DNA of 47,756 nucleotides. Source: Crocinitomicaceae bacterium (GTDB lineage Bacteria; Bacteroidota; Bacteroidia; Flavobacteriales_D; Crocinitomicaceae). The stretch is taken from the NCBI GenBank assembly GCA_014762645.1, contig JABURP010000053.1:1-47756 (forward strand), in the 5' to 3' direction. How positions within the stretch are numbered: the stretch's first letter is position 1; each line of letters begins with the position of its first letter. The notes below the pieces were generated by a model. That model was given only the letters and a program-made list of their open reading frames with translations. It was not told the origin of the DNA and made no database searches. Below, in pieces: positions 11,085 to 45,645 of the stretch. The translations under genes were made by a program, and so were the position numbers.

Positions 11085-11105
11085 TGACTAAAGGTAAATA
11101 AAAAC

Positions 11106-11138
11106 AAAAAAGCTCCCCGCAATGCGGAGAGCTTTTTT
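11106..11138 (-). terminator. Intrinsic terminator of the beta-barrel gene
   Basis: AAAAAAGCTC (11106-11115), one mismatched base, CCGC (11117-11120), loop AAT, GCGG (11124-11127), one mismatched base, then GAGCTTTTTT. On the minus strand the stem is followed by a T-rich run. It lies between the end of the gene at 11162 and the start of radC, so radC probably needs its own promoter. Confidence 0.85.
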
Positions 11139-11877: not shown

Positions 11878-11906
11878 TTTGTTAAATCAATAATTCCGTA
11901 CATTTG
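11878..11906 (+). promoter_or_regulatory. Consensus promoter ending 4 bases before the start codon
   Basis: TTTG (11878-11881), 17 bases, then TACATTTG (11899-11906): a full match to the Bacteroidota -33/-7 consensus. The ATG at 11911 follows the -7 box after 4 bases, which puts the predicted transcription start at or next to the start codon. The signal peptide encoded right after the ATG makes a later start unlikely. Confidence 0.75.
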
Positions 11907-11910
11907 AGAC

Positions 11911-12549
11911 ATGAAAATAGGGACATTTTTTTTGTTGATTTTATTAAATTTTTTCTGTTTGGCGCAACCGTATAATAGAATGATTAAGGTCAACATGGGA
12001 ATGAGTAGAGAAATGATTGATCACTACCGCATTCAAAAATCCATTAATGATACTGGTGATGTCAAATTAGATTTTTTATCCTGGAGCCCAACTGTTTCGT
12101 ATTCTCACGAATTTATATTTGGGCAGGTAATTTCAGCTTCAGGAACAGTTGGTTTTCAGTATATGAACTTGTATTATGGATCCCGACATTATGGGGCACC
12201 GTTTTTTTACATTTCAGCTAATCCGCAGTTATCTATTTTTTATCGCAAAAATTTTGAATACTACATTAAATTGCAGATTGGAGGAACGTTTTACATTCAT
12301 AACCCTGAAGTGATTCCCGAGCCTACACGAAGGCTATTACCCAAAAAGGCCAACTTGTTTACTGGTGTAACGCTGGGTGGATTTAATTTTTTCTTAACGG
12401 ATAAGCTTGGATTGAATCTTGAGTTGTCGTTTTGGTCAGCCGAAATGGTTACATTTGGATTAACTTATCGTTTTTTCAGCGGAGATTTACCTGAAATACA
12501 AAACGGAGGTGAAGGAGTTAATGACCAATTACAAGATAAAGTACCATAA
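11911..12549 (+). CDS. Secreted protein of unknown function, probable outer-membrane beta-barrel
   Basis: A 212-residue protein with signal peptide MKIGTFFLLILLNFFCLAQ, then strands rich in aromatic residues (for example SYSHEFIFGQVI, GFQYMNLYYGSRHYG, FFYISANPQLSIFYRKNFEYYIKL) and a terminal TFGLTYRFFSG strand of the kind seen in barrel proteins. The polar tail after that strand is unusual for a barrel end. The promoter at 11878-11906 predicts an almost leaderless mRNA. A rhodanese lipoprotein gene follows after 3 bases, so the two are probably cotranscribed. No family is recognised with confidence. Confidence 0.8.
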   Translation: MKIGTFFLLILLNFFCLAQPYNRMIKVNMGMSREMIDHYRIQKSINDTGDVKLDFLSWSPTVSYSHEFIFGQVISASGTVGFQYMNLYYGSRHYGAPFFYISANPQLSIFYRKNFEYYIKLQIGGTFYIHNPEVIPEPTRRLLPKKANLFTGVTLGGFNFFLTDKLGLNLELSFWSAEMVTFGLTYRFFSGDLPEIQNGGEGVNDQLQDKVP

Positions 12550-25189: not shown

Positions 25190-25296
25190 ATGTTTTGGCT
25201 GGGTTTATTGTGTGATTTAATCGCTATTCAATAAAATGTGCTGATTGTATAAATTTTTTAATTCCGAAGTATCTTATATATTTACTTTGCAACTCA

Positions 25297-26372: not shown

Positions 26373-26912
26373 CTAGTGCTCTGTAGATTTTTGATCCGAT
26401 AGAACAAGTATCAAATCCTTAAGCAGTTCTAATTTCTCAGATTTCACGTCAGAACTTTCAAAAATCAATTTTGATTGCAAGTAAAACTTTTCACGCTCCG
26501 CTACTTTTTCATTCACGAAGTTTCGCATCTTCTCCGGGTCATTTTTAAACGGAGCAATAAGCGGACGCACGGTTTTAGATTGCATTAATCTGGTAGTCAG
26601 AATACCGTTATCAACCTTTAAATATACCGGTACTCCTTTCTGTCTCAAAACCTTCATAACATCCTCCTGGCAGGGTGTTCCGCCACCTAGGGAGATAACG
26701 GCCTGCTTATCGTTTATTTTTTTGATCCAGTTCTTCTCTAATTCTCTGAAATAGTCTTCTCCTTTTTGCGCAAAAATTTCTTCCACACGCATTTTTTCCT
26801 CCTCTTCAATTGCCTTATCCATATCAACAAAAGTAGTGTCTAAACGTCCTGCTAAACGTTTGCCTAAAGTTGTTTTTCCGGCCCCCATAAATCCAATCAG
26901 GTACACTTGCAT
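26373..26912 (-). CDS. aroK: Shikimate kinase
   Basis: This 179-residue enzyme phosphorylates shikimate in aromatic amino acid synthesis. Walker A is GFMGAGKTT (about 7-15), the shikimate-binding DMDKAIEE follows at about 31-38, then RELEKNWI, GGGTP (about 76-80) and the lid arginines in SKTVRPLI. Length and motifs are standard. A perfect -7 element (TAGATTTG, minus strand, 26917-26924) ends 4 bases before the ATG, so the mRNA is probably leaderless. It converges with the gene at 25617, leaving 42 bases with no strong terminator. Confidence 0.95.
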   Translation of the reverse strand: MQVYLIGFMGAGKTTLGKRLAGRLDTTFVDMDKAIEEEEKMRVEEIFAQKGEDYFRELEKNWIKKINDKQAVISLGGGTPCQEDVMKVLRQKGVPVYLKVDNGILTTRLMQSKTVRPLIAPFKNDPEKMRNFVNEKVAEREKFYLQSKLIFESSDVKSEKLELLKDLILVLSDQKSTEH

Positions 26913-26916
26913 AGGG

Positions 26917-26951
26917 CAAATCTATTGAGATTTAACTGATCTCGTGACAAA
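26917..26951 (-). promoter_or_regulatory. aroK promoter, directly against the start codon
   Basis: On the minus strand TTTG (26948-26951), 23 bases, then TAGATTTG (26917-26924). The ATG at 26912 follows after 4 bases, placing the predicted transcription start at the start codon. Confidence 0.6.
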
Positions 26952-26974
26952 TACAAGAAAATTAAAATATTTAC

Positions 26975-27004
26975 TTGTGGAATTAAATAAAGCCGCTATA
27001 TTTG
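26975..27004 (+). promoter_or_regulatory. tRNA-Lys promoter
   Basis: TTG (26975-26977), 19 bases, then TATATTTG (26997-27004), a full match to the Bacteroidota consensus, about 41 bases before the mature tRNA-Lys 5' end. Confidence 0.75.
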
Positions 27005-27045
27005 CACCCGCAAACGGGGAAAAAGTTCTCCAGGTATGCAAACTA

Positions 27046-27118
27046 GATCTGATAGCTCAGTTGGTAGAGCATCTCCCTTTTAAGGAGAGGGTCCTGGGTT
27101 CGAGCCCCAGTCAGATCA
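27046..27118 (+). tRNA. tRNA-Lys, anticodon TTT
   Basis: A complete 73-base cloverleaf. Acceptor GATCTGA pairs with TCAGATC. The D arm is GCTC...GAGC. The anticodon stem TCTCC/GGAGA encloses the loop CTTTTAA with anticodon TTT. The T arm is CTGGG-TTCGAGC-CCCAG. Discriminator A73 is followed by CAG, so CCA is not encoded and must be added enzymatically. A hairpin terminator follows at 27122-27148. Confidence 0.97.
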
Positions 27119-27121
27119 CAG

Positions 27122-27148
27122 AAAGGTGACAGAGATGTCACCTTTTTT
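27122..27148 (+). terminator. Intrinsic terminator after tRNA-Lys
   Basis: AAAGGTGACA (27122-27131), loop GAGA, TGTCACCTTT (27136-27145), then further T to 27148. It is a strong stem with a U tract, 3 bases after the tRNA. Confidence 0.9.
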
Positions 27149-27162
27149 GTTCAAATGAGTAG

Positions 27163-27170
27163 TATATTTG
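27163..27170 (+). promoter_or_regulatory. -7 promoter element of tRNA-Leu
   Basis: TATATTTG, a full TAnnTTTG match, ending 6 bases before the mature tRNA-Leu 5' end at 27177. The nearest TTG (27147-27149) is at only 13 bases spacing and lies in the T tract of the preceding terminator. Confidence 0.6.
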
Positions 27171-27176
27171 GACAAA

Positions 27177-27263
27177 GCCCAGGTGCTGGAATTGGTAGAC
27201 AGGCATGGTTGAGGGCCATGTGTCCGTTTGGGCGTGCGGGTTCGACTCCCGCTCTGGGCACCA
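27177..27263 (+). tRNA. tRNA-Leu, anticodon GAG
   Basis: A class II tRNA of 87 bases including an encoded CCA (27261-27263). Acceptor GCCCAGG pairs with TCTGGGC (one G-T). The anticodon stem CATGG/CCATG encloses the loop TTGAGGG with anticodon GAG. The variable arm is long (TGTCCGTTTGGGCG), and the T arm is GCGGG-TTCGACT-CCCGC. Together the long variable arm and GAG anticodon identify leucine. Confidence 0.96.
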
Positions 27264-27272
27264 GGAAATGAG

Positions 27273-27304
27273 AAACCGATATGCAATTGCAGGTCGGTTT
27301 TTTT
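27273..27304 (+). terminator. Intrinsic terminator after tRNA-Leu
   Basis: AAACCGA (27273-27279) pairs with TCGGTTT (27294-27300), with a self-complementary TGCAATTGCA in the loop, followed by TTTT. Confidence 0.75.
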
Positions 27305-27380
27305 CATAGTAGGTTCTGCCTGTAATTAATTATCACTCCTCCACCTGTTCCAAATCATATTTTCTCCAGGCCTGTCTGCC

Positions 27381-27388
27381 TAACTTTG
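27381..27388 (+). promoter_or_regulatory. -7 promoter element of the cytochrome c peroxidase gene
   Basis: TAACTTTG, a full TAnnTTTG match, ending 7 bases before the ATG at 27396, so only a very short leader is expected. No clear TTG is found upstream. Confidence 0.55.
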
Positions 27389-27395
27389 TGAGATT

Positions 27396-31628: not shown

Positions 31629-31644
31629 ATATACAAATCAATTA

Positions 31645-34743: not shown

Positions 34744-34770
34744 CAAAGTTAGCATTATCCCTGTTTCCAA
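34744..34770 (-). promoter_or_regulatory. menB: menB promoter
   Basis: On the minus strand TTG (34768-34770), 16 bases, then TAACTTTG (34744-34751), a full -7 match. The -33 box lies inside the last codons of the upstream gene (34755-37049), so menB has its own promoter although the gap is only 31 bases. The purine stretch AAAAAGGA before the ATG may act as a ribosome binding site. Confidence 0.6.
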
Positions 34771-43645: not shown

Positions 43646-43696
43646 TTTTTAATACTTTAGTGCGAAAATAGTCATTATCTACACTACTTTGATTCA

Positions 43697-44924: not shown

Positions 44925-44932
44925 TAACTTTG
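44925..44932 (+). promoter_or_regulatory. cmk: cmk -7 element next to the start codon
   Basis: TAACTTTG, a full TAnnTTTG match, ends 5 bases before the GTG at 44938. TTTG boxes upstream lie at spacing 10 or 24, neither ideal. The predicted transcription start falls on the start codon. Confidence 0.55.
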
Positions 44933-44937
44933 CATTA

Positions 44938-45645
44938 GTGTCTGAAATAACCATAGCAATAGATGGATATTCTTCCTGCGGGAAGAGTACACTGGCCAAA
45001 GCTTTGGCAAATCACCTTAATTATATTTATGTGGATAGTGGTGCTATGTATCGTGCTGTGACCTTACATTTAATGAATACTGGTCTATTAAAGGATGGAC
45101 ACTTCATTCATCAGCAGGTAATTGATGAGTTATCCCGCGTAGATATACGTTTTCAGTATAACAAAGAACAGGGAAAATCAGAAACATATCTCAACGGCGA
45201 AAATGTAGAGAAAGATATTCGAACACTTGAAATCTCCAGACAGGTAAGTGCCATTTCAGCCATTAAAGAAGTGCGTGACAAACTGGTTTCAATTCAACAG
45301 GAAATGGGTGCGCAAGGTGGCGTTGTTATGGATGGTAGAGATATTGGAACGGTTGTGTTTCCCAATGCTGAAGTCAAACTTTTTATGGTGGCCGGTAAAA
45401 CCATAAGAGCGAAACGCAGATACATGGAGTTGAAGGAGAAAGGTGAAAATTTAACCCTGGAAGAAGTTAAAAAAAGTATTGCCAGAAGAGATAATCTGGA
45501 TATGAATCGGGAAATCAGCCCACTGCAAAAGGCTCAAGATGCTGTTGAGATCGACAATACAGAACTTGACGAGAAAGAACAATTTGAGCTTGCGCTTAAA
45601 ATCATTAATGAAAAAGTGAGGTCACTACAAACGACCAATACATAA
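44938..45645 (+). CDS. cmk: Cytidylate kinase
   Basis: A 235-residue enzyme that phosphorylates CMP and dCMP. The P-loop DGYSSCGKSTLAK is near residues 9-21. VDSGAMYRAVT follows at about 32-42, then VVMDGRDIGTVVFP (about 137-150), RAKRRYMELKEKGE and RRDNLDMNREISPLQKAQDA. The start is GTG, because the protein family begins two or three residues before ITIAIDG. The kinase gene ends 17 bases upstream. Confidence 0.96.
   Translation: MSEITIAIDGYSSCGKSTLAKALANHLNYIYVDSGAMYRAVTLHLMNTGLLKDGHFIHQQVIDELSRVDIRFQYNKEQGKSETYLNGENVEKDIRTLEISRQVSAISAIKEVRDKLVSIQQEMGAQGGVVMDGRDIGTVVFPNAEVKLFMVAGKTIRAKRRYMELKEKGENLTLEEVKKSIARRDNLDMNREISPLQKAQDAVEIDNTELDEKEQFELALKIINEKVRSLQTTNT

Follow-up and report, generated by a model that had tools for sequence, protein, structure and literature searches.

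Leaderless mRNAs are already known, as a minority, in three members of the Bacteroidota, according to the accessible text of the studies concerned; Flavobacterium psychrophilum, Bacteroides thetaiotaomicron and F. johnsoniae belong to the same phylum and use the same TAnnTTTG promoter box as the organism described here, with definitions of a leaderless message that differ from one study to another. For F. psychrophilum a leaderless share of 5.5% comes from the transcription start sites before 890 coding sequences (PMC9723704), in B. thetaiotaomicron about 3.7% of the 5′ UTRs are shorter than 10 nt (PMC7366714) and in F. johnsoniae 87% of the leaders are longer than 10 nt and 13% are not (PMC6847099). 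The −7 box of F. johnsoniae spans positions −12 to −5, and in probable promoters the start site lies 4–5 nt further on (PMC6847099). In these three organisms the leaderless messages were measured by RNA-seq, whereas those considered here are predicted from sequence. Zheng et al. (2011; PMC3160421) similarly took a −10-like signal ∼10–12 bases before the start, found in their TA-led genes, as the mark of a leaderless message, but they sought a Pribnow-like box, and the available part of their paper names the Bacteroidetes as rich in atypical rather than TA-led genes. Nakagawa et al. (2017; PMC5397173) likewise suggested that an AT-rich bias at −20 to −10 in Bacteroidetes may reflect leaderless promoters, but the available part of that work deals in gene averages and not in box spacing, and holds that the bias does not simply reflect such promoters. 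We found no description of a spacing spike, an initiator bias or a GUG excess for the Bacteroidota in the accessible text of the open-licence literature, a scope outside which most subscription journals lie.

The window, by which we mean the whole stretch of 47 756 nucleotides that was analysed, is contig 50 of the 4.23 Mb genome of a Crocinitomicaceae bacterium. The distance d counts the bases that separate the last G of a TAnnTTTG box from the start codon. A preliminary description had listed eight genes of the window with such a box, or a near match to it, ending a few bases before the start codon. Four of these eight cases have an exact TAnnTTTG box (of the form TAHHTTTG, G being rare at nn genome-wide); all four, before the gene at 11911, aroK, cmk and the cytochrome peroxidase gene, were located again with the same coordinates and the same d (Table 1). 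Five further genes of the window (starts 9574, 11785, 25159, 25617 and 34723) have TAnnTTTG at d = 16–22. What is enriched is the position of the motif; the motif itself, with 50 matches in the window against a shuffle mean of 56, is not. The Pfam results agree with the identities given to the aroK, cmk, peroxidase, radC, histidine kinase and M48 protease products, and the same scan found no family for the 11911 and 25297 proteins.

Table 1. Boxes, genes and other features of the window, with d as defined in the text.
Feature	Position	Strand	Remarks
Near-match box TACCTTTA	11089..11096	−	d = 4 to radC ATG 11084; probable
Terminator-like hairpin with T-rich tail	11096..11138 (stem 11138–11106)	−	Directly upstream of radC
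−7 box TACATTTG	11899..11906	+	d = 4 to ATG 11911
Gene without Pfam family, predicted leaderless	11911..12549	+	Start at ATG 11911
Near match TTACTTTG	25282..25289	+	d = 7 to gene 25297; box status unsupported
aroK (shikimate kinase), predicted leaderless	26373..26912	−	Pfam SKI, 1.7e-38
−7 box TAGATTTG	26917..26924	−	d = 4 to aroK ATG 26912
−7 box TAACTTTG	27381..27388	+	d = 7 to ATG 27396 of di-haem cytochrome c peroxidase gene; predicted leader 2–3 nt
Near match TTGATTTG	31634..31641	−	d = 5 to M48 protease gene (GTG); box status unsupported
Leadered comparison box TAACTTTG	34744..34751	−	d = 20 to enoyl-CoA hydratase gene start 34723
Near match TACTTTG (7-mer)	43685..43691	+	d = 5 to histidine kinase gene; box status unsupported
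−7 box TAACTTTG	44925..44932	+	d = 5 to cmk GTG 44938
cmk (cytidylate kinase), GTG start, predicted leaderless (0–1 nt leader)	44938..45645	+	Pfam Cytidylate_kin, 7.4e-66

The spacing was examined before 1020 gene starts, called with a home-made simple coding model, in a sample of 1.45 Mb of the genome that includes the window. TAnnTTTG precedes 46 of these starts at d = 4–7, compared with a mean of 3.6 and a maximum of 9 in 200 dinucleotide shuffles; three permuted motifs average 1.7 at these distances, and none of them spikes. The peak at 4–7 bases that the preliminary description had named as support, if a genome-wide count should show it, is present in this third of the genome, and it is sharpest at d = 4. 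There are only two boxes at d = 0–3, which would put +1 within the gene, then 21 at d = 4, 11 at d = 5, five at d = 6, nine at d = 7, 21 at d = 8–15 (shuffle mean 6.9, maximum 15) and 106 at d = 16–30 (shuffle mean 12.8, maximum 22). The distribution is bimodal, with the spike at d = 4, a trough near 9–15 and a hump at 16–30. The start-proximal boxes (d = 4–7) are a minority, 46 against the 106 at d = 16–30, and leadered promoters are the majority. With the permuted motifs subtracted as background, d = 4–7 accounts for about 22% of the boxes within d = 4–60, a different measure from the published leaderless shares that implies no higher share here. The sample holds 31 TAnnTTTGN4ATG sites against 30.8 expected from the 90 in the whole genome and is thus not enriched for them, and 20 contigs without a d = 4 ATG match still have five boxes at d = 5–7 before 139 starts. 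Counted over the whole genome without a filter, TANNTTTGN4ATG shows a modest contrast to its reversed control (90 sites against 70), because many sites of the pattern are not gene starts; for TAHHTTTGN4ATG the counts are 75 and 44.

The other four of the eight cases are near matches, and for these we tabulated variant boxes by distance in the same sample, as plain counts without a shuffle test. The TA..TTTA variant occurs 22 times at d = 4–7, 15 times at d = 8–15 (eight distances) and 57 times at d = 16–30, and is denser at d = 4–7 than at d = 8–15 in this tabulation without shuffles. AA..TTTG is found six times at d = 4, TA..TTAG five times and TA..TTCG three times. TA.TTTG (three at d = 4–7) and TT..TTTG (two) show no peak near the 1020 starts of the sample, and TG..TTTG and TC..TTTG occur once each at d = 4–7. 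Of the four, only the radC near match has a form that is over-represented close to starts; those of the M48 protease gene and gene 25297 were dropped as examples because TT..TTTG lacks a start-proximal peak, and that of the histidine kinase gene because TA.TTTG lacks one. The count of eight thus reduces to the four exact boxes, with radC as a probable fifth. Like the consensus, variants with TTCG or TTAG at their end are seen at d = 4, both in the sample and upstream of orthologues of the 11911 gene (L105 and L106), so that the −7 consensus of this family may be broader.

Even with the boxes taken as real promoters, translation could proceed mainly from longer messages begun at upstream promoters, the leaderless form being minor. 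Among the alternatives this one survives best, and we consider it unlikely. In its favour, 26 of the 46 start-proximal genes are codirectional with their neighbour and 13 have an upstream gap of less than 40, cmk among them; the gap between the histidine kinase gene and cmk is 17 nt, so that read-through or a polycistronic message is also possible for cmk. Against it are the 20 genes whose upstream neighbour does not share their direction, including aroK and the peroxidase gene, and also radC, which sits after a terminator-like hairpin. aroK and the peroxidase gene diverge from a 483 bp gap (26913–27395) with a start-proximal box at both ends (d = 4 and d = 7); within it TATATTTG occurs at two further places of the + strand, 26997 and 27163. 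At radC the hairpin stem ends ∼9 bases before the TACCTTTA box, so that the terminator tail overlaps the promoter, and a radC message begun after the stem would have at most about 21 nt ahead of the ATG.

Orthologues of cmk and aroK were compared in a clade consisting of the own genome and G001, G002, G003, G010, G013 and G022, which rank next for both genes; the limit of the clade was set post hoc, where the cmk identity drops from 66% to below 60%. In all seven genomes cmk starts with GTG and has a box before it, at d = 5, 4, 4, 7, 4, 4 and 4 (L140–L146), of the TTTG type except for TTTA in G001 and G022. A stop codon lies 0–12 codons upstream of this GTG, the P-loop follows directly and the nearest alternative in-frame start is at least 17 codons downstream or absent, the exception being G003 with an ATG two codons on. 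Of the 30 cmk loci compared, 23 lie outside the clade, and four of these carry a start-proximal box, in two cases TTTG at d = 6 and in the others TTTA at d = 5 and d = 7. Among 21 named cmk loci, read by eye, two from Mangrovimonas carry TAGATTTG at d = 5 and a single Maribacter locus carries TATCTTTA at d = 4. In the more distant loci cmk is more often called with an ATG or TTG start.

aroK has TTTG boxes in the same seven genomes, at d = 4, 3, 4, 3, 4, 4 and 3 (L170–L176). The three at d = 3 are a misfit with a start at box+5, since +1 would fall inside the codon unless only 3 nt separated it from the box. Upstream of aroK the frame is open for 78 codons in G010, where the start is GTG, and for 31 codons in G022, which makes these two starts less sure. 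Among the other 23 of the 30 aroK loci, six show start-proximal boxes, of the TTTG type in four (d = 4–5) and of the TTTA type in two (d = 6–7). For the 11911 gene nine loci were available, two of which (L109 and L110) were set aside as more distant paralogues; in five of the other seven, the window included, a TA..TT.G box stands at d = 4, ending in TTTG in two cases, in TTCG in two and in TTAG in one, and the remaining two orthologues are leadered (d = 27 in G010 and d = 16 in G013).

These comparisons bear on whether the start codons were called too far upstream, with the true starts lying downstream behind normal leaders. Our starts rest on a simple coding model, and in the case of 11911 the caller itself preferred position 11980, 69 bases downstream; the alignment of the G003 orthologue from residue 2 of the protein favours 11911. 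Random miscalls would not yield a spike at exactly d = 4. The cmk start is held in place by the P-loop directly after the GTG and by the lack of another close start in six of the seven genomes, and the ATG eight codons into aroK encodes a conserved residue within the P-loop segment LIGFMGxGK. We therefore regard general miscalling as very unlikely.

The start-proximal boxes share with the leadered ones a G-poor nn and A-rich upstream bases. No clear −33 element (TTTG) was seen upstream of either set, judged by base composition; this element is hard to see in F. johnsoniae too, in the accessible part of that study (PMC6847099). The start-proximal genes are without the A-rich signal of leadered genes: A has a frequency of 0.30 at −3 and 0.15 at −2, compared with 0.47 and 0.40 in leadered genes, positions −13 to −10 being occupied by the box and hence not comparable. 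Counting from the box, base four is a pyrimidine in 34 of the 46 start-proximal cases, compared with 51 of 105 leadered boxes (p = 0.004), and in the d = 5 set the base two before the codon is a pyrimidine in 11 of 11. A pyrimidine at a fixed distance from the box fits a predicted +1 at box+5 and the need for a precise start.

A signal for translation, such as a U-rich element, might stand at the same place in the absence of any promoter, and the 13 boxes at d = 4–7 among the 301 codirectional genes with a gap of less than 40 speak for this. Against it, the TA is required, TT..TTTG, TG..TTTG and TC..TTTG having the low counts given above; like leadered promoters, these boxes avoid G at nn and have A-rich sequence before them; and the distance of the pyrimidine is fixed to the box and not to the codon, as the d = 5 set shows. 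We hold the translational reading to be highly improbable.

The spacing is not a peculiarity of this organism, an idea that we rejected on comparison with the 37 genomes of the same class among 148: TAHHTTTG-N4-ATG is more frequent than TAHHTTTG-N10-ATG in all 37 (2899 against 1446 sites), with N4/N10 ratios from 1.3 to 4.4, and N4 exceeds N20 in 30 of them. The N4/N10/N20 counts are 75/38/49 in the own genome, 108/25/43 in G079, 101/28/43 in G031 and 61/14/14 in G152. Called starts in stretches of G152 (400 kb, 273 starts) have 19 boxes at d = 4–7, eight at d = 8–15 and 24 at d = 16–30; contig 1 of G079 (163 kb, 94 starts) has four, two and 11, which is less striking than the whole-genome counts of G079. 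The 111 genomes of other classes were kept out of the N10 comparison and set against the reversed control, which N4 exceeds in 68 of them (2782 against 2176 sites; 2899 against 1638 in the same class). Among these other classes, family f32 (eight genomes) has a strong excess at d = 4, 202 sites against 43 reversed, and family f25 (30 genomes) lies below its control, 194 against 247. In the 37 same-class genomes a pyrimidine precedes the ATG at 1728 of the 2899 d = 4 sites and at 588 of the 1446 d = 10 sites, an imperfect control because ordinary called starts already have 54–58% pyrimidine at this position, so that part of the gap merely reflects more real starts at d = 4; for the excess d = 4 sites the figure is 78%.

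We give almost no credence to a mechanical artefact in which the TA is in frame at d = 4 and a TAA or TAG within the box truncates the open frame so that starts cluster after it. In its favour, 22 of the 46 boxes do begin with TAA or TAG, and the TA is in frame at d = 7 as it is at d = 4. However, 24 begin with TAT or TAC, d = 10 and d = 13 in the same frame have one case each in the sample, permuted motifs that contain TA do not spike and N4 and N10 share a frame yet differ twofold in whole genomes, in-frame controls by which this reading is already contradicted. The suggestion of a regular class rather than chance is upheld by the spacing spike, by the 37 of 37 genomes and by the retention of the cmk and aroK boxes; as a class defined by sequence, these promoters are real and regular and are kept before some orthologues.

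Mycobacterial leaderless mRNAs start with GUG beside AUG, in another phylum, with another box and with a larger leaderless share. In our sample GTG is the start of eight of the 46 start-proximal genes and of 36 of the other 974 (p = 0.0005). Over the 37 genomes TAHHTTTGN4GTG is more frequent than the N10 form in 27, tied in three and lower in seven (826 against 638 sites), so that the excess is absent or reversed in ten, ties counted; the own genome, with 39 against 19, and G031, with 37 against 15, show it strongly.

A Pfam family was assigned to 37 of the 40 start-proximal genes of the own genome that were scanned, several of them repair, RNA-modification, nucleotide or cofactor enzymes; the 40 are the 46 less three window genes, which were scanned separately, and three genes at d = 7 (L084, L086 and L090). 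The leadered control covers 20 of 30 drawn genes, without four long ones and the final six, and we therefore claim no functional enrichment. For G152, Pfam families of mixed function were assigned to 17 of the 19 start-proximal genes. Start-proximal and leadered genes were also compared for hydrophobic N-termini, and a difference was not retained (12 of 46 against 41 of 104, p = 0.14).

The boxes would be ordinary promoters of the primary sigma factor of the Bacteroidota (σABfr type, −7 box TAHHTTTG), with RNA polymerase starting about five bases after the box. With d = 4 the +1 would then be the first base of the AUG or GUG, as the F. johnsoniae geometry also implies, and the mRNA would be leaderless; with d = 5–7 a leader of about 1–3 nt would result. 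The expectation that these messages begin at or beside the start codon thus applies to d = 4 if the published geometry holds, while d = 7 would leave 2–3 nt. The ribosome would presumably begin on the 5′-terminal codon in the absence of the A-rich signals that lie upstream of leadered genes, following the established leaderless pathway. This pathway uses initiator tRNA and IF2. This route is summarised in the accessible text of PMC10783764. The trough in d may mean that leaders of about 4–11 nt suit neither mode of initiation. That the mRNAs predicted from these boxes are leaderless or nearly so is well supported by sequence; the actual start of transcription at box+5 and translation from the 5′-terminal codon are what we infer from the spacing. 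Taken together, σABfr promoters spaced for leaderless or nearly leaderless mRNAs, beside a leadered majority, are very probably the explanation of the pattern.

Shine–Dalgarno sites are mostly absent from the Bacteroidota, which raises the question of how the ribosomes of this phylum choose their start sites. The proposed link between this class and weak Shine–Dalgarno use is doubtful and was not kept, since leaderless translation cannot explain the missing Shine–Dalgarno sites in F. johnsoniae according to the available part of that study (PMC6847099). A broader proposition, for and against which we see the balance as even, is that the Bacteroidia have a second, evolutionarily stable mode of initiation: leaderless mRNAs with a sharp promoter-to-codon spacing and a pyrimidine–purine initiator, for many housekeeping, nucleic-acid and cofactor enzymes, with GUG accepted as a 5′-terminal start, cmk as a clade-wide leaderless GUG gene and this spacing (N4) far more frequent than the other two, N10 and N20, in G079, G031 and G152. 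Should a definite minority of genes be leaderless by design, the spacing of the box would suffice to predict which. Start-codon annotation, including that of GUG starts, would then be corrected, with cmk and aroK among the test genes, and the trough between leaderless and leadered messages would make the smallest useful leader length testable.
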